64,000 nt of DNA from Pegea sp. RAD2-039 (Eukaryota > Chordata > Thaliacea > Salpida > Salpidae). The stretch is from the NCBI GenBank assembly GCA_034620365.1, contig JAQGEQ010000289.1, positions 372,001-436,000 on the forward strand, given 5' to 3'. The notes beneath the pieces were generated by a model. That model saw nothing but the letters and a program-made list of their open reading frames with translations. It ran no database searches and was not told the origin of the DNA. Position numbers and translations under genes: made by a program. The first letter of the stretch is position 1. Each line of letters starts with the position of its first letter. Positions 1 through 64,000 of the stretch are shown here, one piece after another.

Positions 1-355
1 TTTTAGAAGTCAGTGTGTTGTGATTGATTTAAAACTTTAATAGAATTCTTCTAATTGATATTTTTACTGGTTGAATTCACTCAGCGTTTTGTGTTTAAAA
101 TCATAAGAAAGATAACTTTGAAATGAACAAATAAATTCTAAGAAATTAGATTAGGAATTTTCAATCTTTGCCAAATATTTCTGTTTAATTTTGTTTAATA
201 AATCGATGAAGTTGATATTTTCTTATTTGAGGTTAAAGATTTTTTATTATTAGAACTTATTTCAGAAAATTTGATGAGTTTAGATTTTTCTGAAGAAATG
301 GAAAGATAATTGCAAAGTATGATTTTTTTAACATCAGATCAACAACCGTGTGAAG

Positions 356-3300
356 ATGACTTCAACTCTTACTCACTCTAACATCTCAATTCTTCTTGTT
401 TTAAGTGAGTCCATATTTTTGCAGAAACACATTTGAAAATTATTTTGTGAAAAATTTGAAATATCATGAGTACTTCTCAAATAAATTTTTGTAAAAATTA
501 AATTGTGAATAAATTAAATTGGAAAATTTATAAAATGAAACAATCGAATGATAAGTTGAAAGAAACCACTTGAACAGAGTACTTGTCATTTACAGGAATA
601 CCAGTTTCTCATTTCAAACTCTAAATCTATCATTTAAAATGTTTGATAAATTACAAATAACATCAACTCGTATTTTACAAATGTTAAATAATCGTTGTTT
701 TTAACAGTAAGCATCTCTCTAGCACAACCGTGTGGTGAGAAGCTACAAGAGCTCGAAGGTTTCATCTCACATCCTTCCTACCCTGAAAATTACACCTCAC
801 ATTTGAATTGTAAATGGGAAACTACAGCACGTGACCAAGACACAGTTTTCCTAACTTTTGAATTTATTGACATTGAAATGGCAAATAATGGCAGATGTAA
901 CTATGATTATTTAAGGTTAATATTTTTCACTATATCTGAAAATTTCCCTTCTAAAGTTTCTCAGCAACTTTGTTACTTAAATAACTTGTAAGTATCCTAA
1001 TATTTTGACTTGTGTGTTATCTACTTGTGTATTTACATTATTAAAGTAGATATCAAATCTTATAATTTTATCTCAAAGCTTCTTTAAAAGGTCTTTTATA
1101 AATTAATGAAAAAATTAAAGATATTTTGTAATTATCAGTTTACCAACAACAATTTGTTTCATGATAAAAACAACATATTTTGTTGGCGACAATTAAAAAA
1201 AGCTCTCTTGAAAGCCACACAACATTTTTATTATAATCTTATTTAAGAGAGACACAATATGGTTGATTACTGATGAGCAACAAGTGAGATTAAATCCTTA
1301 TTAGTTTATCTTCATCATCTAAATGTCCAGAATGGTTCAGACTTGATCCAAGAGTAACTCCCTAACCACCTAAAAATGTTAAAAAAATTTTAAGTTTTAA
1401 AATTTAGTTAAAATCAAATCTTCATCACTTTTTGCAGCATCAAATTTCCTGATGATAACCGTCCCACAAAGCTATGCGGACCACGGTCCTCTTTTGTGAC
1501 AAACGGACTACCTGAAGAAGATGGCACTGGTCCAGTAGAGATACAATTTGTGTCCGATGACAGCGTCCAGTGGTCGGGCTTCCGAATGCATTACAAAAGT
1601 AAGATTATCTCTTCGGACCTTTCTCTTCATCTGTTGACTTCAGTCACCAGATTTGACTACTGCTCATCAAACCCCTGCCTCAATTCAGCCACTTGTGAAT
1701 TGGACGATTCAGTTGACTCTGGCTTCAACTGTCACTGCCTAAGTGGCTTCACTGGTCACGTGTGTGAACTAGGTGACTGAAAGTTACACTGATGACGTCA
1801 TTACATCGCGATTTCTTGTAGATTCGGACGAATGTAGCAGTAGTCCTTGTCGAAATGGTGGTCAATGTACCACACCTGACTTTGATATGTACCGATGTGA
1901 GTGTCCAAGTGGGACAGCTGGCCACAACTGTGAAATTGGTCAGTGCTTGATTCAAAAGCCGCTCGATGTAAAACTTGTGACGTTATTTATAGATGTAGAT
2001 GAATGTGAATCAGATCCTTGTTGTAATGAAGCTGCTTGTATTGATCGAATCGATGGATTCATCTGTGTATGTCGCGACGGATTCACCGGGATCCTTTGTG
2101 ATGTTGGTGAGTAGTAAGAACTAGTCATGTGGTCTAGAACTAGTCACGTGGGTTATTTCAGACATCGACGAGTGCCAATCAGAACCATGCTTGAATGGAG
2201 CAACTTGCTGGAACGAAATTTCACGCTTCGTTTGTTCTTGTCAACCTGGTTACCATGGCGACCGTTGTGAGAAAGGTGAAAGTTGACTACTAGATGGTGT
2301 TTGACTAGCAACATAGCATTTCAAATGCAGAAATCGATGAATGTGAAAGCGAGCCATGCTTCCATGACGCTATCTGCATCGATAGTCTCAATCAATTCTC
2401 GTGCACATGCCGTCACGGTTACTATGGCAACCTGTGTGAGATCGGTGAATGACGTCACCAGCGCGAGAGCTTTTCTTACTTTGTACTTTCAGACATCGAT
2501 GAATGTTCGTCATCGCCTTGTAGCAAGAAAGGAACTTGTATCGACCTCATCAACAAGTCAGTCGCTAGTGGTTGTCATGACAACGATGACGTCATATTGT
2601 AACAGGTACGAGTGTCGATGCGAGGATGGTTACTCGGGGCAACACTGTGAGATTGAACTTGATGAGTGTGATAGTGATCCTTGTTTAAATGGAGCGTTTT
2701 GTGTCGATTTTCCATCGCGTTTTCGATGCGAATGTAATGATGGCTTTGTCGGTGATCTATGTGAAACAGGTTAGTGACATCATGATGACGTCATCATCGC
2801 TGATTTTATGATGAGTAGATGTTTGTGGATCGAATCCATGTCGGAATGGAGCAAGCTGTCGATCTAATAAAGATAGTTTTATTTGTGAATGTCAGATCGG
2901 TTTCATCGGCGATTTGTGTCAAACAGGTGAATCGCGTTGTGATGATGTCATCAGTTGATCTTGTGTCTGCAGATGTATGTCTTTCGGAGCCATGTCAAAA
3001 CGGAGGACGATGTGTTCGGGAAGAAAAAGGATATTCTTGTAAATGTACAAATCAATTTAAAGGCGCTAATTGTCAAGGTTCTCGCCCCAAAAAACATCTT
3101 TATTCCTTTTCTTCAAAATCTTTTGTTTTCAGACAAAGTGACAACAACAACAGTTGCCATGACAACCACTCACCTAGCAACCGCTAGCCCAACTACAGCG
3201 ACCAAGACGACAACTACGACAGCTACGATGACGCCGATGCAGTCGAGTCCTTGTCACTCTTACCCTTGCTCTTTCGGGGGTTTTTGCCAGGAATCTGCAT

Positions 3301-5178
3301 CTGGATTTGAATGTCTTTGTCGTGCCGGATACACTGGATCCTACTGTGAATCAGGTGCGTGATGACGTCATCAGTGTGATTATGTGACTGGTGTATTAAC
3401 AGCGATCGACTATTGTGCGTCATCACCGTGTAAAAATGGAGGTAGTTGTTTGAATGAAGTTGTTCGATTCAGTTGTATCTGTTCATCTCCTTTTACTGGT
3501 ACTCTCTGTCAAGATGGTTTGTTTCTCATTTAAGGGAGTTTCCCCCAAGCTGAGACATATTCGCAGAGAATCAACCTTCTGCTGATGATGACGATTCGAT
3601 ATCTTCACTTTTGTTTCCAATTTTAGCTTTTCTTCTTTCGGCATTCGCGACAGCTGCTTTTATCTACTGGTTTTGGCGAAAAAAGAAGCGTAAAGACGAA
3701 GTGACGTCACAAACAGGTGAGATGACGTCACAGACGGATGTGGGTCGAGTCGACGTCGATTTGCAGAGCCAGAAAGTAAAAAAGATCGAAAAGACGAATG
3801 TAAAAAACGCGGTTCGAAGCGATGTTCCGCTCGAATGCGCAAAAAGCGTCGCAACTCCGTACTTCCGGTAATGAGCGATGATGACGTCACCAGCGACGCG
3901 AGCGATTTAGTCATCGAGGAATATAGCGGCCCAAGGACACCTCGCACTTCAAGGTTAGTGACGTCAGCAACGGAAGTAGTGATGACGTCATGATCATTTG
4001 CAGAACTCCAGTGACTTACATCACCAGATTTGACCCACTTCCGGTTCGCAATCAATTTGCATATCAACATGGGGAGCTTCCTGATTTGATTCGCGGGACC
4101 ACACAATGCGATTTCCCGCAGGTTAAATATAAATCAGCTTGATGACGTCATTTGATGACTTGAACTGCTTTAGAACCTTTCATTGTGTTTTCAGAGTCCT
4201 TCGATGACGACACAGAGCGAGCAGTCATCAACAAGTTGCCCGTTGTCTTTAACAACTAAGTCAGTGACGTCATCCGGTCAGTTACTCATGTAATTGTTTG
4301 ATCGCCTAATTGAGGCATTTGACATCGGCAGGTTCAGACAAATCTGCGAAAAAAAGTGACCTAGGAGCCGGTGAAAAGAATCTGGAGCGCCCGAAGACCC
4401 ACTGGAAGATTAGAGATGACCGCAGGTTAAACAGCTTTCCCGTTCAGCACCGATTTACTGGTGACGTCATACCAGAATTGAACAAAGGGTATGAGAATGA
4501 CGTCATGAAATCGTTTTTTTTTAATAATTCAGATTTTACTTTTTGCAGCAACAAAGACGCCTCAGAAAGTAAGTTGAAAACGCCGCTAAAAAGCAATTAA
4601 AGTAATTTAAAACAGATTTAATTTGATTAATTTCTGATTAGACGATTTACAAAATTCAGAAGATAAGGAAAAGTAAGTGTTAAACTTTGAGGCGTTTATA
4701 AAAAAAAGCTACAAAAACTTTGTCATTAACAGAAATTCCGGTGAAAATATATCTAACGAAAATTCAGTTGCGCCCAAAAATACATCAACTGGTGAGAAGA
4801 CTGAAATAAATTGTTACAAAAAATGATTAGTTGTTAAGTAATGATCTAAATCTAAAAGTCATCCTTATATTGAAAGAATAATCAATCATTAAAAAAGTAA
4901 AAAAATTACAAAAAGTTCAATCAGTTCAGTTTAAATTGATTTATTGAAAATCGGTTTTAAAGTAGATAAAGATTAAATTGAAGCATTTTCGACTAATTCT
5001 AATTCTACTTATCTAGTTGTTGTTCAATTTAAATGTTATAAACAAATAAATTTCAGATGTTCAAGATATCAAATCAACAAATGGAGTATTTAAATTGATC
5101 AAGAATATAAATGCCAGCAACAATTTAAACAGGATAAATACTTTGAATCGGGAAAATGCATTTGTCAAAAATTTCTAG
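356..5178 (+). CDS. CUB + 11 EGF-repeat single-pass receptor, multi-exon
   Basis: About 20 exons. Exon 1 (356-404) joined to exon 2 (708-915) gives a signal peptide ending near SISLAQ. One CUB domain follows (exon 2 plus 1438-1598; motifs SHPSYPENY and WSGFRMHY). Next come about eleven EGF-like modules (about 1650-3515), mostly one per exon, with DIDEC-type calcium-binding starts and PCxNGGxC cores; introns between them are about 45-60 bp and mostly phase 1. A Thr-rich mucin-like linker (3135-3240) separates EGF 9 and 10. A TM helix (about 3611-3675) is followed by a stop-transfer RKKKRK. The cytoplasmic tail is basic and Ser-rich, across small exons (3767-3953, 4004-4121, 4195-4276, 4332-4482, then short exons) ending with TAG at 5176-5178. 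Polyadenylation-like AATAAA motifs follow near 5290 and 5400. The layout resembles fibropellin/Notch-ligand-type surface proteins, but there is no DSL or LNR domain, so I give no name. The last small exons are the least certain. Confidence 0.84.
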
Positions 5179-6928
5179 CAAAAACTGTCCATCGCCAGAT
5201 GGTGCTGTTGAGCGCCGTGTTTGTTTTTTGTAAATAGTTTTTTTGATGTTGACTTCTAGATACAACTTCATTAAGTTTTCTTTGTATAATAAATTAAGTT
5301 GTAAATAATACTTAAAAAGTTGAAGTACTTCTTTTAAGTTACAAATAATTTTTCTACCGTTGCTTTAGTTAAAAGTAACTTTTTGGAATTGTTACTAAAA
5401 CAATAAAAATTTGACAAATTAATTGATTTTTTGTCATTATTAGAAATATTTTAGATTTGTCAAGTTGAAAAAGTTTGCAAACACTAAAAATTATGAATCA
5501 AAAAGAAGCTATAAGCAATTAAAAGTTTTTATCAGTAATCAATATCGAAATTGAAGTATACATTTAAAAGCAATAAAATTTAATTGAGTTTTGATGGAAA
5601 TTTTCATTTGATTATCTCTAATTCAATTAATATTGCAGCAAATCAAATGTTTGCAATTTACTTGATCTTAATTTTTTGTTCATCACAAGAGATCAAACCT
5701 TCTATAGTTGACATCTAATATAACTTCAAATTATTCACAAGCAAATTGTCACCAATTCAGCAACTAACTTACAAGAGCTTTTCACCGCAACCAACCAATC
5801 ATCAATTTCAATTATTTAAAACTTTGACTCCTCTGTCTTCTGTTCATGTAATCTCTCCATCCATCAGAGCATCTTATCATGATCTTCTCCCTCAATTTTG
5901 ACAGCAGTGAACTTGAATGAATCTTTTACGAGCCAAGCTCTACAAGTGAACAAACAGCTTCTGCTTGAAGAAACTCTTCTTGTGATATCTTCCTCAAAGT
6001 CACTTTCTATTTGATCAGTTTCTAATCTAGTTTTTTAGCTCTGATCACTTTGATTTTCGGAGCCTATTATGTAAACGAGAGAAAAAGTTTGAAAAAAAAA
6101 AGAAATAAAAAGTTACAGAAGAAAATTTGAAGAGAAATTGAATCAAATCTTTTGAGCTCTTCATCAGACCTAATCATTTGCTTCTGATTGCTTTTTTATA
6201 TTTTCTAAATCTTCGAATTTATTAGAAAATTATGAAAAAATTTATAGAAGTGTTTGTAATATGATGACGTCATAAGGCCATTTGCGATGTGATGACGTCA
6301 TCGTAGATAAGTTCAAAAAGTTGACAAGTTTCTAGCTGAGAAAATTTTGATTTGACTTTAGTGATTAAGACTGTGTGACGTCATGACGCGATAGTTGTTC
6401 ACGTGATTCTTATTGTGTCGATTAGAAATTTGCAGTAAAAAGAGAAAACTTTTGCATTTCAAATTGATTATTTAAAGTTTTGACGTAAAAATAAACGTAA
6501 AAAGTTGAAGAAAAGTATTTGTAAGCAAACCGGTAGATTAGATCGATAAAATGTCTACAAAAAACTTCCAAAATCTTTTAAGAGATTTTCATCTGAAATC
6601 TTTTTATAAAAACTGAGAATTTGAAAGCGATCTGCATCCAGTCAATGTCTTTGATGATCATATTAATAAAACTTCAATTTGTTAATTTTCAACCAATTAG
6701 CTTCATTATTAAATCTTTCAATTGATGACCTATCGATCATCAGATAACTATGACGTCACCAATGGCAACCAGAAGAGCGAGTTTATCAGATTTCTTTCTA
6801 ATTTTCTTTGATAACTTTTCGACATAATCTAATTTTTAAATGATTTCTTTCAGCAGTTTTTGAATTGCGTTTTTAGATTCGTTTTTTTCTTCAGTTATTT
6901 TTAATTTCATTTTTGCGCACGTGACGTC
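5179..6928. other. intergenic, AT-rich
   Basis: I see no coding exon. Polyadenylation-like AATAAA motifs for the upstream gene lie near 5290 and 5400. TGACGTCA palindromes sit near 6265, 6293, 6376 and 6750, in the 700 bp leading to the next gene, and a CACGTG lies near 6399. Confidence 0.6.
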
Positions 6929-8867
6929 ATGGGCGCGACTTGTTGCCGATCCGTCGCTACTGACAACATCAACGATGAGTTGAAGGGTGTTGACATGGCA
7001 ACAGAGTTGTGCGAGAAGACAGGGTTTACTGTTGCCGAGCTGCGAAAACACTTCAACGAATTTATGAAAGTAAAGTTAACCGCATGCGGCTAATCTAGCT
7101 GTCAGTTTGTAACTTAATTAAATCGCCCGCTTGCATTGTGCTAAAACCATCGCAAGACTAATTACGCCGCCTGCATCAGGACTACCCGGACGGCGTGGTG
7201 AATGTAAATCAATTCGCTCAAGTCTACGGAAAGTTTTTCCCTCACGCTGGCATAGCTGGAAGCAAGAAGCGCGCAGAAGAAGTCTTCAAACAATATGATC
7301 AAAATAACGATGGTGAACTGATCACCATGGTAACATGACTTGGTTGTGATGACGTCATTGACAGGCACTATAGACTTCCGTGAGTTCACAATCGCGTTAA
7401 GCAAACTGTCACAAGGAACTATTCGTCAAAAGCTTTCGCTTGCTTTCTATCTGTATGATGAGAACTGTGATGGAGTCCTTTCATTTGATGAGGTCCTCGG
7501 GATTGTCGAGGTGATTACGTCATTACTTGCTTACGTCATCATTTGCTTGTGTGTTTTAAGCATCGAAAACTTTTTTTTTCATTTTGATTCGAGAGATTAA
7601 GTTTAAAAAGATAAAAGAAAAAATAAAACAAAAAGTTGTGAGATTGAAAATTTGAAGTTTTAGATCATTAAAAAGATTAATGGAAGTTAATCGATGTCAC
7701 GATCAGTGATTAGTAGCTCTTTCGATCTTCATTAACTAAATGTTGATGTCTGGTGACTTCCTACTCATTTCCATGACAACCACAAGACACATCATAATCA
7801 TTAGAAGAGCGTTTGAAGTTGACATGAGTTTCTAGGAGATAAAGACACTGGATGCAGATATTAGCAAGACTTTAAAAGATCAGAGACAGCTGATTATAAA
7901 TTACAACAATAAGATAACCATTTAAAACCATTTCGTGGTTTGTTACTCACCATTGCAGATTCGATGGTTTGTAAGATTGAAGTCACGTGACTTGGTAATA
8001 AATCACAAATCTGCGGATCAATGTCAAGAATCGATCCTCTTTATCTTTTTCAAAGTTATCTCTAATTTAATCTGATTCCTTTAAATTCACCAATGACGTC
8101 ATCAGTATAGACTTTTGTAGGTAAGTGACGTCATTAGCAGAATGTTAGTTAGTAGGCAGAAAAGAAAAATTGAAAAAGTCGAAAATGAATAATTGATAAA
8201 AGAACATGTTTTTGGTTGGTGTGGATGAAAACCGGGTTTGTGTGAAGAAGAGACAAAATCAATACTTCTACTCGTAGTCTTAACTCTTTCGCACCATTTC
8301 ATCGCTTTTTAGCGTAGTAGATGACGTAATCATGTAACCATGGTAACTTTCATGAAAATTTGAGTGGTTGTTGAACGTTACAACTCAATTTAACAGCTAC
8401 AAATCGCATAATATAAACACGTGCACACCAATGACATCATAATGTAAGATTCATAAAAACGCGATACGCCGCTAAAAGAAGATGTTAACTTCGGAAGAGG
8501 GGGGTTTTTACTTCTGATTTTTGTGTTGTTTAGTAAACATGTTGATACAACTAAAAGGTACAAATATTTCAGCATGATCAAAATGAATAATTTATCTGTT
8601 GTAGGCCATGTACGCCGGAGACCAAAAAGTCTTAAACAGTAAACGAAGTGAAGAACTTCCTCCTGCTCAAGTCTTTGCTAAAAAGCTCTTTGCTGAGTTG
8701 GATAAGAATGGAGATGGTGAGGATTATGTCTTTATGATCTTCATCTTTATCGTTGTTGTTATTTAGGAGAAGTAACAGAGGAAGAGTTTGTGGATGTTGG
8801 CCAGAAGAATCCAACTGTTGCAGACTTGCTCCTTGCGAATATGAATGATCCTCAGAATAGCTCCTGA
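6929..8867 (+). CDS. Neuronal calcium sensor-type EF-hand protein
   Basis: Five exons: 6929-7069, 7180-7312, 7365-7510, 8605-8716, 8767-8867, all in phase, giving 210 residues, the usual NCS length. The start MGATCC has the Gly2 of an N-myristoylated protein plus two Cys that could be palmitoylated; Cys rather than Ser/Thr at position 6 makes myristoylation uncertain. The first EF-hand (around residue 48, DYPDG) is degenerate, as in NCS-1/recoverin. Intact loops follow: DQNNDGTIDFRE (87-98), DENCDGVLSFDE (123-134), DKNGDGEVTEEE (173-184). VEAMYAGDQ after the third loop matches the family's VxAIY segment. NCS proteins are calcium-dependent membrane switches acting on kinases, receptors or channels. 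The third intron is long (about 1.1 kb). The start ATG overlaps a TGACGTCATG palindrome. The family is clear; the orthologue (NCS-1, VILIP, KChIP) is not settled. Confidence 0.88.
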
Positions 8868-11811
8868 TCTTCTTCATCATCTCGCCGCCTTCCCATCATT
8901 CTTTGCATCATTTGTTCTCTGTAAATCTTCCAAAGTTTTTTTGCTTGGCGAATTCCAAATCTCTCTAATTTTTCCTGATTTTTTTTTCATTTTATTCTTT
9001 TAATTATGAAGATAATGAAAGTAAAAATTTGAAAGTTTTTAATTAATTGGCAAAAATTCTCTTTTTTTCAAAAAACTATTTTTTTTTTTTCGATGTTTTT
9101 TGTGAAAAATAAAATTTCCTGTAAATGATTTTTCCGACAAAAAATAAAATAATTTAATTTTTTCGGTTTTAAAACCCAAATGTCATATTCACATTTATCT
9201 TTTGCAAACTCAGCTTTTAATTATCATCTATTTCAATGACATAAACACTGACGTAAAAGCTGCCTTGTCCGTTTCACAAATAGATTTGAAGCATGCAGAT
9301 AGTAGCTTAGAAATGCCTTCACTAAATATTTGTAGCAACATTTTGGACTTTATGACTTTTGGCATATTTCTTGAAATAATTGAAACAGAAGATGTCATAT
9401 TGAAATAATTTGCTTTATTACTGAAGTAAGCACATTAGGTAGGATTTTCAACAGTTTTTTAGGATAAAAAAGAAAAAATAATCTGAAATACAAACTTTTC
9501 AACGAACTATTTTCAATTTTTTTGTTTTATTTCAACTTTAATTACATGCAAATGAAGCAACCGGTATCTAATTGAGATAAAAATTAAGAAAAGTAATTGA
9601 AGTTTAAGTGGCTAATTGGAAAGCGTTGTTTACAATCTGTAAGTTTTCTTCGTTTTTATCAACAAAATTCCTAACATCAAATATTTACGAGAACTCAATT
9701 GAAACCAGTTAGCAAAACCATGAAATAGGGGTTTTAACAAGTCACGTGATTCTCTAGACGAAGTTCCGCTTGGCGTTTCTCGCTACTAGAAACAGAAAAT
9801 TGGCGATGAAGTGTTTTCAAATATAAAATAGAAACTTTCAAAGTAAGTAGGTGAAATTACAAGAAGTAATTTATTGCTGTAAATAATATTGATTTATCGT
9901 AAAGTGTTAATTTAACCAGATGAAAATATTTTGTACTTTATGTATTAATCACTTCAATCAAGTCTTTGGCTTGCTTAAACTTGACATCATTAAGTTCTTT
10001 CAATCACACTGTGTCTGTCTTTACCTGTTACTTTGCTTTGCGATGGTTTTATTTCTTTTTTAGTATTTAATTTAACTGACAGTTTTCCAATTTAGAAACA
10101 TACCAATGAAACAAACGAAAAAGTGACAAGCAATCCTGAATATAATTGAATGAAAATTACATGTCAAATGTAAAATATGAATTTCAGTCATAAAACTTTA
10201 GTTACAGCCATGAATTGGACTTTTTTTGAATAATATTTGTTATTTGATCTGTGGTTTATTTAAATATTAAATTCATTTGTCTCATTTTTTTGTTTTAAAT
10301 TTAAAAAATGAAAATTCTTTTTATTCAGTTAAGAATCATGAAAGTTTAAAATAAAGTCATTGAAAGCTACAAAACGAACTACTAACAACCAACTAATTAT
10401 TGTTCGATAAATAATTAAATATAAGTTCATAGTTTTGATACAAATATTACTCATTACTTCTGTGTTCTTATTATAAATAATTTACCATTTTTCGTTATAG
10501 ATTAGTATCTAACCTTAAACCAAGAACTAATTATTAGTTTTTACTTGTTTAACGCATTTCTTAAATAGAATCAAAATGTGATGGTTAAAAATAAAAGTGA
10601 AATTACCAGCATGTTGTTTGCACATGTTTATAAGTTATTCCAAACCACTTTATATTGATTTACTGTACCACTAAATTATTACTATTTAAACGTGAACAAA
10701 AAACTCTTTTTTAATAATCAGCATAACAAGTTTATAAAGTTTAATCATCAACGTTTGTTGCCGCTGCTTATGGGTCATGCTTTAGTAAGCAAGAATTATT
10801 TCAAAGTATTGATTTTAGTAAAAGTTTGAAGTGGAAGGAATATTTAAACAAACAATTAAAATATTAATAAAATCATTTGATAGTGTAGAAGGCTTTGATT
10901 TCATCAATAATCTTCTTGAAGATTACTTCACAGAATAGTTATTCGAAAAGATCTGAAATAAAAATCAAATTTTTAGAATTGCTGTAAAAAATTGTAAAAG
11001 AGTAATACATAAGAATAAATATTTGTGATTTCTTAAAACAAAACAGGTCGTTGACTTGTGGTGGAGTTTTTCAAGTTTGTGTAAACCCTGGTTTGTGGAA
11101 ATCAAACAATTAGTTGAGAATATTGAGTTCAAGTACATCTTTCAAGCTCTTCATTAAAAGTTTGATCTTCTTATAGAAGTTCACTCTTGTGCATCAAAAA
11201 CTTCTCTTTTTATTTATTTTGAAGCCAATTTGTTCACTTAGATATCCACTGTGTTACACTTTGTGATATAATTTCAATTTCTTTTTTGTATCTTTTACTT
11301 GATCTACTACGTTAATAGTAGAGACAGCTTTAGTTCTTTTTCTATAAACTTCATAATTTTTTCAACTTGAAAGTTCAAAGTTTTCTTGTTGGTTATTTGA
11401 ATAATTTAAAAAGATTTTAATCTGAAGAAAGAGCCTTTTATCAAATTTGTTGTTTGAAAAAATCATATGTATACACTCAAGCTAAAATCTTTATGGCAAG
11501 ATTTCTACAACTTCATGGACTGAATGAATAGAATTTACAAACTACAAATTCATCTTTAGTCTGAATCTGTGGTTTAAATGAAAACAATTAAAAATGTTTT
11601 CATCCAAGGAATTGATTTCTTTTATTTTTATTCAAAAACCCAAAAAAAAACAAAAACTCTAAGAACTTTATCCACTTAAGCTATTTCGAAAACTATTTTA
11701 AGCTAAAAAGTATTTACTAACTAAACTATCGAAGTTTTAAAACGAATTTAAGTAAGCGTCTTGTGGTGAAGTTTATAAATAAATACAAATAGTTCAGTCA
11801 GCTGAACACAA
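8868..11811. other. intergenic, very AT-rich
   Basis: No supported gene. Homopolymer A/T runs near 9060-9090 and an AATAAA-type signal near 9107 probably serve the upstream NCS gene. A 68-codon open frame at 9202-9408 resembles nothing I recognise and has AT-rich codon use. One CACGTG lies near 9741. No TGACGTCA is seen here. Confidence 0.55.
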
Positions 11812-11883
11812 GCGTCGATGGTGTAACGGTTAGCATTGGTGCCTTCCAAGCACTAGTTCCGGGTTCGACTCCCGGTCGACGCA
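11812..11883 (+). tRNA. tRNA-Gly (anticodon TCC)
   Basis: A 72-nt cloverleaf. The acceptor stem GCGTCGA pairs with TCGACGC plus discriminator A. The anticodon loop CTTCCAA has TCC at 11845-11847. The T arm is CCGGGTTCGACTCCCGG and the internal A and B boxes are intact. It is identical to the minus-strand copy at 42316-42387. No intron. Confidence 0.95.
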
Positions 11884-11906
11884 TAATTTTTTCAATTTTA
11901 AATTAG

Positions 11907-12072
11907 CAACTTAGAAATAACGATAAAAGTTGATGATTTAGATGAAGAGATCGCGAAGCTTCTATTGGAGAAGCGACAACTAACCGGTGATTTGGAGCAA
12001 TGTAAAGCCGATAAAGATTTTGTTTGGTCGCTATGGGAAAAACTACAACAAGAATCGCCCGATCTTACGCAA
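11907..12072 (+). CDS. Coiled-coil exon resembling centlein
   Basis: An internal exon with an acceptor (either 11906 or 11914) and donor AA|GTGTGT at 12073. It encodes an acidic/leucine-rich helix with the motif CKADKDFVWSLWEKLQ and the end ESPDLTQ. From memory this resembles the N-terminal conserved helix of centlein (CNTLN), a centrosome-linker protein; I could not align it. I see no matching upstream or downstream exon. A possible later exon on this strand lies at 14066-14231, but its frame does not join directly. The exon is antisense to the region where the CIB 3' end might extend. It could be a fragment of a larger gene or an exon relic. Confidence 0.45.
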
Positions 12073-12157
12073 GTGTGTTGTTCGCTTGTTACTTGTTGCT
12101 ATCATTATGTCGTGCTGTTGGTTGCTAGGCAATCAGTTTGGTACAAGATAACAGAAC

Positions 12158-12917
12158 TCACTCAAGGAAGTCTGGAGTCTTCTGAAGCATATGAACGAAT
12201 TCAGATTCTCCAAGTTTACCATCTTTGTCAAGATCAGCTTCTTTAAGAACCTGAAAAAAGTGATCGCTAGGTGGAGTAAGATTCAAATGAGTAACTGACC
12301 GCGTTTGTAAGATAATCAACTTCTTCATCTTCTAATTTACGATTTTCATTTACTGCAATTAATTCCAAAATATTTCTGATATCTTCAGCTGCAATAAACT
12401 GATCTTCATCAAAGTCTGTGGAGAATATCGGATCAAAGTCCGCAGAAGAAAAATAGATGAAGCTCACCAAACAATCTAAACGCGTAATGAGCCTTCAAAT
12501 CGAACGGAGAGCGATAGTTGAGGAAGTTCATCATATCTAAAAAGTCTTCAAATCCAAGCATTCCATCAGATGAAGTGGAAAAAATGTCAATTAAACGCTC
12601 CAAAAAGGGATTTTGCTAAAAAAGGCCCAACAAATAAAACCCGATAAAAAAGAAAGAAATTGTTTTGATCAGCTGACTTGTAATTCGGGCATTTTTTGAA
12701 GCTGTCGATGAGTAATCCGAACTTCATTTACATTTGCTGATGTAATCCGTTTATCCAATGTTTTAAAACTTTCAAAAAGTCTACAAATAATTCAACAAAA
12801 ATAAAAACAAATTACAGAACTTTTCTCTAACTTGATAATTTCTTTTTTATTGAAGTAAGTCAACTCTGTCAGCTCTTCTATGAGATCAGAATCAAGTTTT
12901 GATGATGTGGAACCCAT
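12158..12917 (-). CDS. CIB: Calcium and integrin-binding (CIB) family protein
   Basis: Five exons on the minus strand: 12917-12832, 12780-12678, 12615-12468, 12415-12300, 12250-12158, phases consistent, about 181 residues (human CIB1 has 191). It starts MGSTSSKL, with a myristoylation-type Gly2. The conserved NPFLERL...FSTS, FEDFLDMMN and HYAFRLFDFD segments are present. EF-hand loops: DFDEDQFIAAED (113-124; Gln replaces the usual Gly at loop position 6) and DLDKDGKLGESE (157-168). It ends TPDFLE then TGA at 12158-12160. Family members continue 6-10 residues with an SFKI-type tail, and a GTGAGT donor overlaps this stop (exon could end at 12162), so a missed last exon is possible. CIBs bind calcium and integrin alpha tails; an integrin alpha gene lies 31 kb away, without implied co-regulation. 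Introns are 50-52 bp apart from one of 49. Confidence 0.88.
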
Positions 12918-14065
12918 TTTTAGAAGAAAAACGTTTTGTCAAAATAAATGTATTTGCTAGACAATACTCAATTTATCAAAGTCTGGATTACTTGATGATC
13001 AGAACTTATTTAATCCAATTATTTTTTACTAAGTAAAAAATCTCTGATTAAATTTCTGTCAAAAGTTTTTCCTCTGGGACTGAATTAGTGAAATACAATT
13101 TTTAATTTCGACTATGAAGTTGTTCTAAAACTTTAATTTCCAATTTTATTAACTTCAACTCAGTTTAATTAAAAACAAAACTTGTCAACTATCATTAAAG
13201 TCTCATTCATAACTTCTTAAAATTTGTAAAAGTTGTTTTCTTGAAAAAATATTAAAACAAATTTACTTTAGGTTTCAGGAAATTAAATGTGAAGGTGGGA
13301 AATTGGTGAGTTTTTTTGTGTTCTGAGCCTTTTTCATGGTTCTTTTGTTGTTAAACATTAACTTCTACTTGAACAACTTTATTTAAACTTTTAAAAACGT
13401 CATCAGAAGCTAGAAACAGTAAAAAGAACAAATCAGATGACGTCATCAAATCGGTGGCTATGTTTGAACAAGAAAGCGAAAGTTCAAAAACAAATTTGTT
13501 TAAAATGATTTTCTAGTGAGAATTGTGAATGTGAGAAGATCTGATGAAGTTATTAGACTTACTCATCAATCCAGTTCATCAAATTCCGGATTATCCTTGT
13601 CTATAATCTTGAAACTTGATACTTCATTTGCATAATTGCGTCTTATGCCACTATTAAGTGCTTTAATTTTTATTCTTCATTAATATGACTCTAGTACCAT
13701 ACACAAGTTCTTTATAGATTGAAAATCAGTTATTTGAAATGTGATCTTCATGCAGTTCTTTAATCTTTAGCGAAAACCCTTTTCGATAATCTCTTCTAAA
13801 AGCTTTTTAGCGCCACCTACCGGCTTTTGGTGTTCCCTCTTACGTCTAATTTTGTAGTTTTTTTGGAAATTGTTGTCAGCATAAGCTTAGATTTAAAAAA
13901 TTGAATTAATTTTTACGCATCAATTTAAGAGTTGGATTTTATGAAACTGATAACTTGTAACATTATTTAGAAAATAACTTTCAGTTGCTACTAAAGTTTT
14001 AGTTGCTATGCAAACTGTTAAGTTTATTCTCTACTTGTTGCAGCTATCCGTTGAGATTAAAGATT
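12918..14065. other. intergenic or intronic, AT-rich
   Basis: Upstream side of the CIB gene. Nothing coding is visible. One TGACGTCA lies near 13439, in a slightly GC-richer patch. Confidence 0.5.
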
Positions 14066-15316: not shown

Positions 15317-15317
15317 T

Positions 15318-34412: not shown

Positions 34413-34419
34413 ATAATCA

Positions 34420-36480: not shown

Positions 36481-36489
36481 AAAAAATTT

Positions 36490-42315: not shown

Positions 42316-42387
42316 TGCGTCGACCGGGAGTCGAACCCGGAACTAGTGCTTGGAAGGCACCAATGCTAACCGTTACACCATCGACGC
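42316..42387 (-). tRNA. tRNA-Gly (anticodon TCC)
   Basis: The reverse complement is base-for-base the same 72-nt gene as 11812-11883: acceptor GCGTCGA/TCGACGC, anticodon TCC in CTTCCAA, T arm CCGGGTTCGACTCCCGG. Flanking sequence is unrelated. Confidence 0.95.
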
Positions 42388-43709
42388 TGATGCTACAATC
42401 TTAAAAAGATTTATATTATAATTATTTTATTAATTATTAAATTTTGATTTTAACTTTTCGGTTTTTTTAAATTATTACCAAAGTTTACAGATGATATTGA
42501 GGTTATTGAGATTAATAATAAATTTTGTTTTGTAGCACCTACTGAAATATATTTAATAAAACTCTTATCTTTTCTGCATGACATTTTTATAGTGCTAAAA
42601 AACAATATTTTGAACAAAATATTTTATGAAAATAATAAAAAATATTTTCAAATTTCAGTGGTAGATTTTTTTCATAATAAATTCAAAATAGAAAAAATGA
42701 AATTTATTTCAAAGTTTTAATTTAAAGCATTCAAATTGTAAAAAAGAAAATTGGTTCAAAAAAGTTTGTTGAGAATGACCTTTATGTTATTAAAATTTTT
42801 TTATATAATTAGAAATATCTGAAATCTATTGAAGTATATTTTAACTATTGAAATTTTTACTAAATTTTGAGTTTATGGAATTGAATTAGATAAGTAGTAA
42901 ATATCTACAAAAGAAAACAAGGAATAAAATCAAGATTGGTTTAAAATGTCATAATTCTTGTGTATAAGGTTTAACCAATTAAAGTTTCTAATAAACTGTT
43001 AATTTGTTTTAATACTACAAAAAATCTTAATAAAATTGATAAAAAATAATATAAAATCGATTAAATGTAAAGTATTTGCTTAATTTATGAATAGTAAAAC
43101 CTAAGGCGGTTACCAAGCTTACCAAAACGAAATTTTCTTTGCGAAATTACAAGGCTTACCGCTGTATTTCATAAATTATTAACGAAAAATATTTGGAAAC
43201 ATCGTTGAAGCATTCTGTGCGCATTCAAGTGTGACCGACTGACAACTACAATGACGCCCAGAAAGATGAAGAACAGTTGAAAAAGATAGAAGTAGCGGCT
43301 AGTAGACAGAATATCTCACGATTTTATTTCTTCTCAAATACTTGCTGCTGGTTTTTCAGTCTTTTAATTTCACTTTTGATTATTTTTATTTATTTTATTT
43401 TCATTTGAAACACTTTTTGAACAAGTTTTCAATTTGTATTCGTTTATCAACAAAATACTTTCAAAGTTTTATCACTGAAGACAGCTGTGTTTTGATGACG
43501 TCACTCAGACTAGCTAGTTTTATTTCATGATGATGACGCAGTCAGATCAGAATGTGACGTCACGTAAGAGTTAGAAGAAAATTGTAGTTGATGAAAATGT
43601 TTGTCGAAACGTTTTTAGTTTGCGGCGAGAAAAATATTTGAAAAATTTCAGCAAATTTCAATTTTTCAGATTTTGTTTTTAGTATGTTCTAAAACGCACC
43701 AATCAAACG
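42388..43709. other. AT-rich flank, then upstream region of integrin alpha
   Basis: AT-rich to about 43190, then more mixed. TGACGTCA occurs near 43496 and 43556 within 220 bp of the integrin start, so this may hold its promoter. A coding-like stretch at 43.25-43.41 kb is discussed under rejected items. Confidence 0.45.
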
Positions 43710-48649: not shown

Positions 48650-49258
48650 GAAGCAAACAGGTCACGTGGTCTGCTGGAAGCCTCGTGACAAACTAGAAAC
48701 TTTGACTTTATGTAAATTGCTTGTGTGCCAAAAATTAAGTTGCTCTAAAACTTGTCAACACCAAAATATACTTCAACATATGCAAATTATCCTGAGCCCT
48801 CCACAAAACTGCTGCATGACGTCATCACCTAACACATGATGAGATTTCTTTGCAATTTTCTTTTTGTAAAAATTTCTCGTCAATTATTGCACTATATTTG
48901 CATATTGGGATTACAAAACAAACTGACAATTTGTGTTTAGTTTTCTGATCAAAAGTTGAAAAACTTTAGTTCCAAACTTTTCAGTTCATTTCATCTGTTA
49001 ATAAAAAGTATCGAACTCAGCAGCTATTCTCCTTTCGACAATTCATCAGAAATATTTTAGGAATGTAAAAGAAAAGCTGACCGAAACATTCCTTTATTTA
49101 GAATACAAAAATTTAAATTAAAAGTTACTTACAAATAAAATAAAAATCAGTAAAAAAAGCAGTTTTCAAATTTCAATGATTTCATTTTTATCAAGATGTC
49201 ATCTGCAAACGATAAGAAGTTTCTACTGAGTCTTGTCATAACTCGAAGTAGTTGATTC
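48650..49258. other. 3' flank of integrin alpha
   Basis: No gene seen. TGACGTCA near 48817, then AT-rich sequence up to the minisatellite. Confidence 0.5.
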
Positions 49259-50815
49259 ATTCAACTTCAAATCTTCAACTAACTTCAAATCTTCAACTAA
49301 CTTCAAATCTTCATCTAACTTCAAATCTTCAACTAACTTCAAATCTTCAACTAACTTCAAACCTTCATCTAACTTCAAATCTTCAACTAACTTCAAATCT
49401 TCAACTAACTTCAAATCTTCAACTAACTTCAAATCTTCATCTAACTTCAAATCTTCAACTAACTTCAAACCTTCATCTAACTTCAAATCTTCATCTAACT
49501 TCAAATCTTCAACTAACTTCAAACTTTCAACTAACTTCAAATCTTCAACTAACTTCAAATCTTCATCTAACTTCAAATCTTCAACTAACTTCAAATCTTC
49601 AACTAACTTCAAATCTTCATCTAACTTCAAATCTTCATCTAACTTCAAATCTTCAACTAACTTCAAACTTTCAACTAACTTCAAACCTTCAACTAACTTC
49701 AAATCTTCAACTAACTTCAAATCTTCAACTAACTTCAAATCTTCAACTAACTTCAAATCTTCAACTAACTTCAAATCTTCATCTAACTTCAAATCTTCAA
49801 CTAACTTCAAACTTTCAACTAACTTCAAACCTTCATCTAACTTCAAATCTTCAACTAACTTCAAATCTTCATCTAACTTCAAATCTTCAACTAACTTCAA
49901 ATCTTCAACTAACTTCAAATCTTCAACTAACTTCAAATCTTCAACTAACTTCAAATCTTCAACTAACTTCAAATCTTCAACTAACTTCAAATCTTCATCT
50001 AACTTCAAATCTTCAACTAACTTCAAACTTTCAACTAACTTCAAACCTTCAACTAACTTCAAATCTTCAACTAACTTCAAATCTTCAACTAACTTCAAAT
50101 CTTCAACTAACTTCAAATCTTCATCTAACTTCAAATCTTCAACTAACTTCAAATTTCAACTAACTTCAAATCTTCAACTAACTTCAAATCTTCAACTAAC
50201 TTCAAATCTTCAACTAACTTCAAATCTTCAACTAACTTCAAATCTTCAACTAACTTCAAATCTTCAACTAACTTCAAATCTTCAACTAACTTCAATTCTT
50301 CAACTAACTTCAAATCTTCAACTAACTTCAAATCTTCAACTAACTTCAAACTTCAACTAACTTCAAATCTTCAACTAACTTCAAATCTTCAACTAACTTC
50401 AAATCTTCAACTAACTTCAAATCTTCAACTAACTTCAAATCTTCAACTAACTTCAAATCTTCAACTAACTTCAAATCTTCAACTAACTTCAAACCTTCAA
50501 CTAACTTCAAATCTTCAACTAACTTCAAATCTTCAACTAACTTCAAATCTTCAACTAACTTCAAATCTTCAACTAACTTCAAATCTTCAACTAACTTCAA
50601 ATCTTCAACTAACTTCAAATCTTCAACTAACTTCAAATCTTCAACTAACTTCAAATCTTCAACTAACTTCAAATCTTCAACTAACTTCAAATCTTCAACT
50701 AACTTCAAATCTTCAACTAACTTCAAATCTTCAACTAACTTCAAATCTTCAACTAACTTCAAATCTTCAACTAACTTCAAACCTTCAACTAACTTCAAAT
50801 CTTCATCTAACTTTA
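49259..50815. repeat. 18-bp minisatellite (AACTTCAAATCTTCAACT)n
   Basis: About 86 tandem units of 18 bp with point variants (CAACT/CATCT, AAATC/AAACC/AAACT). Because 18 is a multiple of three, both strands are open over hundreds of codons: (TSNLQL)n on + and (KLVEDL)n on -. Single-base deletions near 50152 and 50348 break both frames, and I find no splice signals or start context, so I treat it as satellite DNA. Blocks of variants recur, showing higher-order duplication in the first kilobase; the last 650 bp is nearly homogeneous. Confidence 0.95.
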
Positions 50816-51081
50816 AATCTTGTTCTCAATTTCAGCAAATAAATTTTATTCTTAGTTTATTTGGAAATCGATTTCTCTAATGTGTTACATGAATTAAAAA
50901 TGAATTATTTTTTCAAATCAACTTGAGTAAGCATTTTATGAAAATTTAAAAGAAAAATTTAAAGTTTTTGGAAGTTGTGAAGACTTAGTTTCTTTTGTTG
51001 CATCATCAAATGAGCCACTTGACGGCAAACGCCATATTGTCTCTGAAACTATTAATCAAGAATTTTGTTGAATATCGAACT
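50816..51081. other. spacer between minisatellite and RPTP gene
   Basis: Short AT-rich spacer containing the 3' flank of the minus-strand receptor gene; nothing else seen. Confidence 0.5.
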
Positions 51082-59562: not shown

Positions 59563-59565
59563 TCA

Positions 59566-59893
59566 GATGCCAAGGTCTAGGACCGAAGATACTCGTTGAA
59601 TAATAAATCTATTGATGGAGTATTGGTTCAAGCAATTTACAGCTGGTTTACGAGAAAAAGTTATAAGTTCAAACTTTGTGAGCTGGATTCTGAGCTGCCA
59701 ATTCGTAGACCAGTTTTCTACAGTGTGTAGTGCAGTTTGAAGTTTTGAAGGATTACAAGATAATAGCTTGATATCATCTGCATACACAAACACTCTGACA
59801 TCATCTACTGCTACTAATCTTCTGATGAGGTCTTCAATGAAAATTAAAAAGAGAAGGGGACCCAGAACGGAACTCTGAGGAGCACCACTTCGG
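59566..59893 (-). mobile_element. LINE reverse-transcriptase fragment
   Basis: A minus-strand piece encoding VYADDIKLLSCNPSKLQTAL and flanking RT sequence, close to 95% identical by eye to 35166-35500 of the larger LINE. Truncated at both ends, with AT-rich flanks. Confidence 0.85.
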
Positions 59894-60560: not shown

Positions 60561-60775
60561 CTCTCTGAGGAACTATCAAAAGGCAAATGAACATCGATCG
60601 TTCCTGTCTTCGCTTCAAGGATACATGTAAGCGCGATATGAAGTTGCTTAGTAACGATACCAATAATTGGGAGGTTATCGCAGAGGATCACTCCAAATGG
60701 CGATCTCTACTCCGCGTGCAATTAAAGGAGAGAGAAAACAAACCAGCTTCAAAGAAAAGAAAGAAACCCTAAAAA
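60561..60775 (+). mobile_element. non-LTR retrotransposon ORF2 C-terminal fragment
   Basis: The frame at 60587-60772 encodes FKDTCKRDMKLL and NWEVIAEDHSKWRSLL, the typical C-terminal segment of retrotransposon polyproteins (R.KDCVKRDL...W..LA.DR..WR). It belongs to a different family from the YADD fragment nearby. Only the end of the protein is present. Confidence 0.7.
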
Positions 60776-61049
60776 CTGATTAGCTCCTTTGCATTTCACT
60801 GCTTTTTGCTTTGCTTTTGACAACACCTCTTGAGCACAACCTGTAATCCTTCTCGGCCGAAATATACTAAATATTATTATATCGCTAAATTATTAAAACT
60901 CTCACTAAGAATGCTAATAGCAAAATCAAATAAGTTTAAAAACTTTCGACTAACAAAACGTATTCAGTTCATCACTCAAATGCCCTTCATTTAGTAAGTT
61001 GAAGGGTTTAATTTAAAATTTAATTAAAATAATTCGACTTATTAAACAG

Positions 61050-61121
61050 GGGGATATAGCTCAGTGGTAGAGCATTCGACTGCAGATCGAGAGGTCCCTG
61101 GTTCAAATCCGGGTGTCCCCT
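61050..61121 (+). tRNA. tRNA-Cys (GCA), copy 1
   Basis: Acceptor GGGGATA/TGTCCCC, anticodon loop CTGCAGA with GCA, T arm CCTGGTTCAAATCCGGG. Followed by a T7 run, a good Pol III stop. Intact. Confidence 0.95.
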
Positions 61122-61245
61122 TTTTTTAATTTTCTTTAAAGATTTGTAATTCTCTCACATAATTATTTGAATAAAGAAATAAATTTGATTTATCACCAAA
61201 AACAGCTGATTGAAAATTAATTTCAAAAAATTGAAGTTGAAACAT

Positions 61246-61317
61246 GGGGATATAGCTCAGTGGTAGAGCATTCGACTGCAGATCGAGAGGTCCCTGGTTC
61301 AAATCCGGGTGTCCCCT
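61246..61317 (+). tRNA. tRNA-Cys (GCA), copy 2
   Basis: Identical to copy 1 over 72 nt, followed by T6. The spacer after it repeats that of copy 1, so the unit (about 196 bp) is tandemly duplicated. Confidence 0.95.
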
Positions 61318-61425
61318 TTTTTCATTTTCTTTTAAAGATTTGTAATTCTCTCACATAATTATTTGAATAAAAAAATAAATTTGATTTATCACCAAAAACA
61401 GCTTGAAAATTGAAGTTGAAACATC

Positions 61426-61472
61426 GGGGATATAGCTCAGTGGTAGAGCATTCGACTGCAGAAGATTGAAGG
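61426..61472 (+). pseudogene. tRNA-Cys 5' fragment
   Basis: Identical to copy 1 from the acceptor stem to the anticodon loop (..GACTGCAGA), then breaks off into AGATTGAAGGGTGTGAAACA and runs straight into the next copy. Confidence 0.9.
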
Positions 61473-61483
61473 GTGTGAAACAT

Positions 61484-61555
61484 GGGGATATCAGCCAGTG
61501 GTAGAGCATTCGACTGCAGATCGAGAGGTCCCTGGTTCAAATCCGGGTGTCCCCT
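61484..61555 (+). tRNA. tRNA-Cys (GCA), copy with altered D arm
   Basis: 72 nt with an intact acceptor, anticodon and T arm, but the D-arm start TATAGCTCAGTGG has become TATCAGCCAGTGG, which breaks the D stem (and A box) pairing with GAGC. Probably weak or inactive. Confidence 0.7.
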
Positions 61556-61677
61556 TTTTTCATTTTCTTTTAAAGATTTGTAATTCTCTCACATAATTAT
61601 TTGAATAAAAAAATAAATTTGATTTATCACCAAAAACAGCATTGAAAATTAATTTCAAAAAATTGAAGTTGAAACAT

Positions 61678-61744
61678 GGGGATATAGCTCAGTGGTAGAG
61701 CATTCGACTGCAGATCGAGAGGTCCCTGGTTCAAATCCGGGTGT
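61678..61744 (+). pseudogene. tRNA-Cys truncated at the 3' acceptor strand
   Basis: Matches copy 1 up to CCGGGTGT, then continues GAAACATGGGG instead of CCCCT, so the acceptor stem cannot close and no T-run terminator follows. Confidence 0.9.
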
Positions 61745-61751
61745 GAAACAT

Positions 61752-61819
61752 GGGGACTCTTTTGGTAGAGCATTCGACTGCAGATCGAGAGGTCCCTGGT
61801 TCAAATCCGGGTGTCCCCT
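61752..61819 (+). pseudogene. tRNA-Cys with shortened D arm
   Basis: 68 nt: starts GGGGACTCTTTTGGTAGAGC, having lost four bases and the D-stem 5' strand; the rest is intact, including the 3' acceptor and T-run. Likely non-functional. Confidence 0.8.
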
Positions 61820-62629
61820 TTTTTAAATTTTTTTTCATAAAATCTACTCTTTTAGAAAATATCATTAATCAGAAATCTTCCCCGAGAAGCTATCTTACTA
61901 GTAGATGTTTCGCAAACCAGTTAGTTATTTGTATTAAATGAGCTCACAGTTCAGTGATATGGGTTTGAAAGCCAAACTTCGTTAGTGTTTTATATTTTTA
62001 TCACGATTTCAGATATTCATGATTGAAGCTAATTGAACTAATAATATATTTGAAATAACACGAGTTTAGATGAGCTTTTGAACAAATAGGAACTGCATCA
62101 GCTTTGTAGCTCAGTTTTCAACTTCAAAAGTTTGTTCTAAAAGTCGGTTTCAGACAAACCACGAAAAATCGATAACCAGTTGCCACTAGCAACCACTAAA
62201 CGTCGAGAAGTTGACAGATGAGCTATTAATTTTTATTTGACGCATATGCTCGAAAACATGAAGATGATTAAACATTAAACTGAAATATCATTGCACCGGA
62301 ACCACCTCTTCATCTCACATCCATATGACACACAAATCGATGACGTCACATGTTGCTGTGGAAACTAACGCGGCGATAAGTAAAGTTGGAATGACTTCAG
62401 ACTAACAATCAAAGGTGGAAATCGATTTCAGGCGCGGTGGTGGATCATCATAACAGCGCAACCATGCAACAGTCGAGAAGAAGAAGAGCTTTTACAAGAG
62501 AAGCGGACATCAAATCAAAGAGAATTACGTCATTGAAACAGATAGTGACGTCATCATGCGGAAATATCTACACCGGGGATTTAGTCTAAGATTTCTGCAA
62601 CTGAGATGGAAAGAACGATGACGTCATAA
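61820..62629. other. spacer between tRNA array and GDI
   Basis: 3' side of the GDI gene. TGACGTCA occurs near 62341, 62547 and 62620. An AATAAA-type signal for the minus strand was not identified with confidence. Confidence 0.45.
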
Positions 62630-63952
62630 CTACTCGTCACCGCATTGGTTGATTTCTTTCTCGGTGAACTCGAAAGGACGGCCCATGACGCGATCGTAGA
62701 TATCCAAGATGTCGTCACAAGTGGTCTCAAAGTGGGTGGACGCATCATAACTCTTCGAGATGAAGACTTTATCTTCGCGACCATCACTGATTGGTTCGTA
62801 TAGGTCATCAACACTGACAAACGAATCAAGAATTGGTTCGAGAAGATTCATAGCTGGTCTGATTTCATCTTCTGGTTTATCTGTTTCCACTGTGGTACTG
62901 ACAATAGCCAAGTACTTGCCCTTAGCTGCTACGTTATGTGCGAAGGACACACAACCAACATAGATGTCGTGTTTCCGGCCCAATTGGCTCTGGGGCAAGA
63001 TAATTTGGCATGACAACGAGTTGTTGGTGTTTTGGATTGAGTGTTCCAGGATACAAATGGCCCGGACCACCTTGCCAACCAACTTTACTCGATCTGGAAA
63101 GTAAGAGGGGTCACCTACCACCATCTTGCCTTTCACTGTCTCGCCCTCTGACGTCACGTGCACCATTCCGCCGTCGACTTTGATGTTATCGATGGGTTTG
63201 TTGAGCATGTAGGTACCACCGTAGATGGCACTGAGCCGGGCAAACCCTTGTGGAAGTTCACCAAGACCATATAGAGGATAGAGGTAAGGACTGACTCCAT
63301 ATTGATTAATAGATTTCTGGTAGAGTTGAATCTTGGAGAATGTCTCAGTGCAATCCTTATTAACGTAATCATCGGTGGTGTAAAGAGCAATTGAGTGACC
63401 TGTGACTTCTTGGATGTTTTTACCCAGATTGAACTCCTTGTATACATTTGCCATGGTCATACCGGGCTTAACAGTTTTGTGAGTCTTGGGGTCTTCTTTG
63501 TTGAAGGTCACAGCAGCTTCTAACATGTTTTTAAACCTACGTTTCTCAAAGAAAGTCATCAAAGCACTTGATAGCACCTCATTAACATTTGCTGGTATCT
63601 TGTGTAGTTTGTTGTTAACAAACACATAACTACCTTCAACAGATTTGAATTCTAGATATCTAGTCACATTGGTATGAACCAGTAACTTTACCAATTTGCC
63701 TTGTGCCATTAAAAACTTGGGAATTAAATCAACATTCCAATCACGAAGTGCACCCATTTTATCTTCATTTTTAAAGTCTTTACCAAACTTCTTATAAAGA
63801 TTAGTCAAGGGTGTCATTGATGTTGAAGCCCCTCCATAATAATCATTTCTATCCATATGAAGGACTTTTAACTTTTCAACTGAAAATAAACCACTTAGAA
63901 TACATTCAGTTAGACCAGTTCCTAACACAATCACATCATATTCCTCATCCAT
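62630..63952 (-). CDS. GDI: Rab GDP-dissociation inhibitor, intronless
   Basis: A single uninterrupted frame of 440 residues from ATG 63952 ([19 protein letters not shown]); the frame runs 10 codons further upstream only from a TTG, so the canonical Met is used. GDI landmarks: the FAD-like dinucleotide fold [19 protein letters not shown], the Rab-binding platform [26 protein letters not shown], and [21 protein letters not shown]. Length matches the family (about 445). GDI extracts geranylgeranylated GDP-Rab from membranes and keeps it soluble for recycling. Codon use is mixed and less AT-rich than the flanks. The coding region has no introns, unlike most neighbouring genes; either introns were lost or this is a functional retrocopy. 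One TGACGTCA lies inside the coding sequence near 63150. Confidence 0.97.
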
Positions 63953-64000
63953 TATTACAGGTGTTGTGGTTGAATGTAACAAGTAAACAAACTTTTAAAA

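Follow-up and report, generated by a model that had tools for sequence, protein, structure and literature searches.

The 8-bp palindrome TGACGTCA is spread at high density through gene bodies in a 64-kb stretch of the genome of the salp Pegea sp. RAD2-039. On balance, and with moderate confidence, we read its copies as putative dimer sites for bZIP proteins of the CREB/ATF class, maintained by selection. This stretch, bases 372001–436000 of contig C19, is referred to throughout as the window; the genome assembly comprises 105,744,746 bases in 387 contigs. The core of the element is the textbook cAMP-response element (CRE). What is new is how densely it is packed into tiny introns and how often it recurs in coding exons, and no description of such a density was found in the open-licence literature, among the titles listed.

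The window contains 76 exact copies of TGACGTCA. Markov models of orders 1, 2 and 3, with the sites masked, predict 0.72, 0.57 and 1.29 copies, an enrichment of about 59- to 133-fold; an earlier note on this DNA had estimated about 75 copies and about 100-fold by eye, and both estimates hold. Among the 24 eight-base palindromes with a central CG and four G/C, TGACGTCA stands apart, each of the 23 others having at most eight copies in the window. In 16 stretches of 10 kb each, picked without regard to the motif (GC 27.6%), 21 copies are seen against 0.55–1.33 expected, with 0–5 per stretch. The excess is therefore genomic. The genome-wide count, which the note had proposed as a check, is 27,792; it lies far above both the 969 copies of the reversed control word and the Markov expectation of 366–882, extrapolated from the 16 stretches. 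The exact 12-mer GATGACGTCATC occurs 3,824 times genome-wide against four occurrences of its reverse. Tandem units containing TTTCAGTGACGTCA are present at C1:5276802–5279007, so that arrays contribute a share of the genome-wide total. The window is itself rich, with about 1,190 sites per Mb against a genome mean of 263 per Mb, some 4.5 times higher.

The conserved unit is longer than the palindrome. A pool of 114 sites, with both arms averaged and locus L023 (a near copy of L022) left out, yields the symmetrical 14-bp consensus TGRTGACGTCAYCA. Preference outside the core is for A/G at −1 (0.92), G at −2 (0.44) and T at −3 (0.56); at distances of 4–20 bp from the core, the pooled sites show no base preference. 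An extent of 14 bp is what a single bZIP dimer covers, and the symmetrical flanks, of the RTGACGTCAY type, match known bZIP motifs. RTGACGTCAY is found at 66 of the 76 window sites. The exact 12-mer GATGACGTCATC, which had been thought the usual form, accounts for only six. One-letter variants in the window, in 12 classes, total 51 against 17.5–28.4 expected, beside the 76 exact copies. Only two classes are clearly raised, TGACATCA (16 versus 3.9–6.2) and TGACGTAA (13 versus 1.2–2.0), and the others are near chance. The window shows no enrichment of the AP-1 word TGACTCA (seven versus 7.3–11.7 expected), which indicates that the preference is for the CRE. Helical phasing of neighbouring sites was also considered; it was suggestive with 20 spacings and disappeared with 44.

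Position classes in the window were taken from predicted gene models, lettered A to J. The predictor scored the site itself as neutral and restricted introns to GT- or GC-AG. It made 12 predictions, of which two were dropped as shadows (60587–63151 on the plus strand and 1801–7358 on the minus strand) and ten kept; six models were trimmed before counting (the last exons of A, the first of C and D, and extra exons of E, F and H). Introns are very short: 62 of the 70 predicted are 43–111 bp long, and 58 of these 62 do not exceed 73 bp. Sites are densest here, with 28 in the 3,472 bp of short introns (up to 130 bp), or 8.06 per kb. Class-specific Markov models predict 0.09–0.62 for the same sequence, so GC content alone is no explanation. 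Flanking regions follow at 2.2 per kb, with 13 sites in 6,003 bp (700 bp upstream of genes) and nine in 4,000 bp (400 bp downstream), and then coding sequence with 17 sites in 13,665 bp (1.24 per kb). Long introns have two sites in 3,940 bp, short introns being about 16-fold denser, and the remainder of the window has seven in 32,920 bp (0.21 per kb). At least one site is present in 24 of the 62 short introns, including 12 of 17 in the integrin alpha gene and eight of 16 in the CUB-EGF gene. Within introns the 28 sites lie 1–41 nt from the donor and are distributed uniformly (Kolmogorov–Smirnov p 0.31), with no fixed position relative to the splice sites. The density in short introns, already judged unusual in the earlier note, is thus substantiated in the window, and an intron-side bias is found genome-wide as well. 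Its statement that sites are confined to gene blocks needs qualification: six blocks (17.0 kb) hold 61 of the 76 sites and the AT-rich deserts (17.4 kb) hold none, but 15 sites lie outside both.

Coding sequence offers a separate test. The 17 coding sites compare with 1.54±1.16 sites, and a maximum of five, in 500 within-gene shuffles of synonymous codons. All 17 are read in two stop-avoiding frames, giving (V/M)TS or DV. The site at 63149 in the gene for Rab GDI gives VTSEGE at a position where PDB chain 1gnd has VKSEGE. In a tankyrase frame at another locus (L037), the two sites give DVT and DVI, corresponding to DLA and EII in the PDB tankyrase-1 chain. Judged by the shuffle excess and by these substitutions, the palindrome is favoured where the protein permits it. 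Signs of selection in the window include the coding excess and the scarcity of most one-letter variants.

The association with introns extends to the whole genome. A palindromic core reads the same on both strands, so that comparing the two possible orders of site and splice signal provides an internal control. Within 30 bp, GTGAGT followed by a site occurs 1,081 times against 469 for the reverse order (binomial p for departure from equality 9e-56), a count in which two sites after one GTGAGT are entered twice and, where signal and site are almost adjacent, the final T of GTGAGT coincides with the base favoured at −3. A site followed by TTTCAG occurs 1,045 times against 727 for the reverse order (p 4e-14), with the tandem array at C1:5276–5279 kb counted on both sides. 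Automatic gene models at 23 loci, with L023 excluded and a wrong-strand model of L011 counted as it is, place 36 sites: nine in short introns (3.7 kb), ten in long introns (29.8 kb), eight in coding sequence (18.8 kb), three in flanks and six elsewhere. Under an alternative plus-strand model of L011, all five of its sites fall in short introns. L037, which was chosen as dense, has seven sites, placed by eye as four intronic, two coding and one unplaced; one of its frames matches tankyrase-1, and it contains repeated introns. L022 and L023, on contigs C192 and C193, are probably alleles kept as separate contigs. They differ at five positions in 3,180 bp, too few for testing the conservation of sites.

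Other words accompany the palindrome. These were counted with tandem repeats masked, and the ranking of words in gene blocks was also made with the sites masked. Top remaining gene-block words include GTCACGTG, TACGTCAT/TGACGTAA, ATTTGCAT and TGATTGGT, which we take to be, respectively, an E-box, ATF/C-EBP-like words, the octamer and a CCAAT-type word. Counts in the window are 18 for GTCACGTG (0.4–0.7 expected), 14 for TACGTCAT (0.8–1.2), 17 for ATTTGCAT (4.0–4.7) and 16 for TGATTGGT (3.0–3.8). In the 16 unselected stretches GTCACGTG occurs five times against 0.4–0.5 expected, and TGATTGGT is enriched about two-fold (19 versus 8.1–9.6). A candidate binding protein is encoded as well. A search of the genome for bZIP domains gave 12 matches, among them an exon at locus L026 whose best matches are the CREB1 chains 5zko (E 2.2e-18) and 1dh3 (7.7e-16); others were named by eye as JUN, FOS/ATF3, C/EBP, PAR-type, XBP1, CREB3, ATF6 and NFE2-like. 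The symmetrical 14-bp unit ending at ±3, the companion transcription-factor words of the window and the encoded CREB bZIP all agree with the earlier identification of the palindrome as the CREB/ATF core.

The general mechanism that we propose is as follows. (i) Each element is a 14-bp symmetrical TGRTGACGTCAYCA whose 8-bp core is sharply preferred. (ii) In a compact genome with introns of about 50 bp, such sites extend beyond promoters. (iii) They occupy introns, the edges of genes and those coding positions that tolerate them, in a subset of genes. (iv) A CREB/ATF-class dimer would bind them, joined by E-box and related factors. (v) The gene body would thereby act as a distributed promoter or enhancer. 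(vi) Bound dimers would bring in activators and maintain the locus in an open state, the dose being set perhaps by the number of sites. The sequence itself shows the excess, its consensus and placement, the surplus in coding sequence, the scarcity of most one-letter variants in the window and a CREB gene; we infer binding, activation, open chromatin, dose and the responsible bZIP. The pattern suggests that, in some genes, regulatory switches run from end to end.

CREs are known chiefly from promoters. The elements in Pegea share with them the identical core, the symmetrical flanks and an encoded CREB bZIP; they differ in that about 28,000 sites are present in 106 Mb, densest in introns of about 50 bp and found also in coding exons. 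A comparable set of words has been published, namely the 8-mers conserved upstream of genes in worms, flies and mammals (Genome Biol 2005, PMC551538). In the available excerpt of that study, the CRE and the octamer ATTTGCAT rank among the most conserved promoter 8-mers, and TGACGTCA, CACGTGAC and CCAAT-type words accompany Sp1 sites in promoters; CRE, octamer, CACGTGAC and CCAAT-type words are the set that stands out in the window. Two tables of the excerpt give an over-representation of TGACGTCA upstream relative to coding sequence of 2.36 and 4.24. The difference is that the study covers upstream regions, introns being named in the excerpt only for exploration. A further candidate for comparison, the ZYRE element of Chlamydomonas, was set aside: in the part of the source available, TGACGTCA is named only as a putative CRE and is not essential for the effect (PMC4889651).

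Several observations weigh against CREB/ATF sites under selection. The first concerns position. Clustering at start sites is expected if CREs serve only transcription, and the start-site region is no richer in sites than distant introns and 3′ flanks. Not all genes with short introns take part, as the counts of short introns with a site are 0/9 in gene F (PTP-like by eye), 0/3 in the SOX gene and 0/3 in gene J. The gene models themselves come from a small predictor of our own, trained on the window from sequence alone and trimmed by hand, and the pattern at the 23 loci is weaker than that of the window, partly owing to the wrong-strand L011 model. The second concerns upkeep. In the 16 stretches one-letter variants number 57 against 26–39.5 expected, beside 21 exact copies (0.6–1.3 expected); the variant surplus of 18–31 is about equal to that of exact sites, and TGACATCA, a product of CG decay, is raised (21 versus 6.1–8.6). 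Many sites in these stretches may thus be decaying. The third concerns partners. In the same stretches the octamer ATTTGCAT is not enriched (ten versus 13.3–13.7), ACGT-type words are enriched weakly and TGACTCA is slightly up (24 versus 14.8–18.1). The CCAAT pentamer ATTGG is not clearly enriched in either the window (126 versus 96–121) or the stretches. Finally, most animals are expected to have a CREB gene, and finding one here therefore does little to explain what makes this genome different.

Of the alternatives, one based on chromatin architecture or locus licensing survives best, although we consider it unlikely. It proposes that a protein on gene-body palindromes holds hubs together or permits expression, for example against silencing, with little promoter activation. 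Such a role would suit sites that run along whole genes and are concentrated in a gene subset. CpG ratios outside the sites point the same way, at 0.88–1.32 in genes A, B, C, D, G and H versus 0.61–0.87 in F, I and J; the GDI gene is an exception, with a ratio of 0.64 despite four sites. The extended consensus, of bZIP-dimer type, and its co-occurrence with activator words in the window speak for CREB/ATF sites instead. A precedent from an early animal lineage, the nearest report on genome organization, cuts both ways: in placozoans, according to the portion of Kim et al. (2025, PMC12221973) available, a repeated motif tied to gene regions is found at the loop anchors of promoter hubs. That motif lies in Mutator terminal repeats at promoters and not in introns, and the palindromes described here have no shared flank, a comparison made by description, without the letters of the motif; the main text of the paper, as available, does not contain the string TGACG. 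A placozoan affinity of the genome itself, considered at first, is not supported by its GC content (27.6% in the 16 stretches) or by its introns, mostly of 43–73 bp.

A broader idea, which we hold to be a little less probable again, is that one symmetrical protein-binding word may be a eukaryotic counterpart of the iterated palindromes of bacteria. It would form a genome-wide code along chosen gene bodies, even in coding sequence, marking open or permitted chromatin independently of promoter position, and would possibly be read or written via CG methylation by the organism's own methyltransferases. The simpler form of this idea appears improbable. In it, a methyltransferase for TGACGTCA or GACGTC, together with a repair or reader protein, creates and keeps the sites, in the manner of HIP1 (GCGATCGC) of cyanobacteria. 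Both are short palindromes of very high copy number, and in the window, though not in the 16 stretches, the salp word, which contains CG, has few off-by-one variants. HIP1 abundance tracks the presence of cognate methyltransferases, according to the available part of the source (PMC4390886); as HIP1 is described there, the salp word differs in its eukaryotic host, its restriction to a gene subset and its bZIP-like flanks, and its cognate methyltransferase is putative. Eleven DNA_methylase matches in the genome, candidates for such an enzyme, raise the standing of this explanation; seven of them lie in single open frames of large size. A simple methylase target would not be expected to show a preference in its flanks or a bias towards introns. 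The rise of TGACATCA, 2.4- to 4-fold in both samples, fits some methylation but means loss of sites, not upkeep. The seven C5 DNA methyltransferase frames are of interest in their own right. They encode 832–873 aa and are located on C57, C249, C32 and C52; C57 carries two of them in inverted orientation and C32 a cluster of three. They are apparently intronless and multi-copy, and are perhaps mobile.

It is very improbable that the sites act in RNA, where UGACGUCA would help introns to be recognized that are too small for the usual intron definition, an option raised in the earlier note. The preference for short over long introns and the genome-wide intron-side bias would fit, but the uniform position within introns, the sites in coding exons and on both flanks, and the 38 of 62 short introns without a site do not, and a signal read on one RNA strand has no need of palindromic symmetry. 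No better placed are the remaining options of that note, a mobile or introner-like element carrying the palindrome or a mutational or gene-conversion bias: high copy number and some tandem copies (the C1:5276–5279 kb array and the repeated introns of L037) are what they have to offer, against the lack of base preference beyond the unit, a search for similar contexts whose first 30 pairs comprise 29 overlapping neighbours and one 17-bp match, the excess over synonymous shuffles, and the low counts of the other CG palindromes, which a bias would hit too.

The Rab GDI and EGF frames were matched directly; EF-hand, PH, HMG box, FG-GAP and integrin alpha were among 72 open frames scanned together, and were assigned to genes by eye. 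Gene A (model 356–4425, plus strand) is CUB-EGF receptor-like, its EGF domain being in open frames 2280–2771 and 1773–2111 and its CUB domain recognized by eye. Its 14 sites, from 1793 to 4505, comprise nine in eight short introns, three coding and two downstream; under the untrimmed prediction these last two lie in a 123-bp intron. Gene B (6929–8867, plus strand; EF-hand protein by eye) has eight sites from 6265 to 8133, five of them upstream, one (7350) in a 52-bp intron and two (8094 and 8126) in a 1,094-bp intron. Gene G (33542–34129, minus strand) has seven sites from 33372 to 34184: two in its sole intron of 54 bp, three coding and one in each flank. Gene C (37538–38408, plus strand; membrane protein by eye) has ten, from 36790 to 38476, of which four are coding, three upstream, two downstream and one just beyond. 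The integrin alpha gene, D (43683–48649, plus strand; by eye), is the richest. Its 20 sites, from 43496 to 48824, are divided among 12 of its 17 short introns (14 sites), coding sequence (three), the upstream flank (two) and the downstream flank (one). Two lie together in one 52-bp intron (46727–46757), the first overlapping the donor (GTGACGTCA...). Another intron of this gene contains a 31-bp tandem array with the palindrome GTCCTAGGAC (45668–45882). Gene E, the single-exon Rab GDI gene (62630–63952, minus strand), has four sites from 62341 to 63156, namely the coding site at 63149 and three downstream.

Two further site-bearing genes lie on the minus strand. Gene H (24093–26204; PH-domain protein by eye) has four from 24182 to 25935, two in short introns and two coding. 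A tandem array with a 21/43-bp unit and the E-box CACGTGAC (22877–23356), which was masked before E-boxes were counted, overlaps the predicted last exon of this gene; the exon is probably not real. Gene I (16859–19762; SOX/HMG-box by eye) has two sites between 19535 and 20314, both on its 5′ side, at 19535 (coding) and 20307 (upstream), and its introns have none. Three stretches are free of sites: 8200–13400, which includes the site-free gene J (EF-hand/CIB-like by eye), 26000–33300, which is mostly AT-rich, and 38500–43400, which is AT-rich. Elsewhere in the window, an 18-bp tandem array of about 87 copies (49263–50821; 96% match) shows strong GC skew and long open frames on both strands. Four tandem tRNA-Cys genes are located at 61049–61819, and single tRNA-Gly genes at 11812–11883 (plus strand) and 42316–42387 (minus strand). 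In the wider genome, two Bcl-2 proteins gave no near-identical chain among solved structures, and innexins gave zero matches, a result that does not demonstrate their absence. Dispersed repeat copies are present at 34331–36629, 28304–28763 and 59567–59889, one with a reverse-transcriptase frame; the dispersed repeats of the window are shared with loci L005, L006, L017, L018 and L020 at 72–92% identity.

If the sites are bound, much of the regulatory code of this salp would reside inside introns of about 50 bp and in coding exons, and its compact genome would manage with few separate enhancers. A transcription-factor site could then constrain coding sequence. Genes bearing such sites would also provide a natural test of whether the number or the position of sites sets gene activity.

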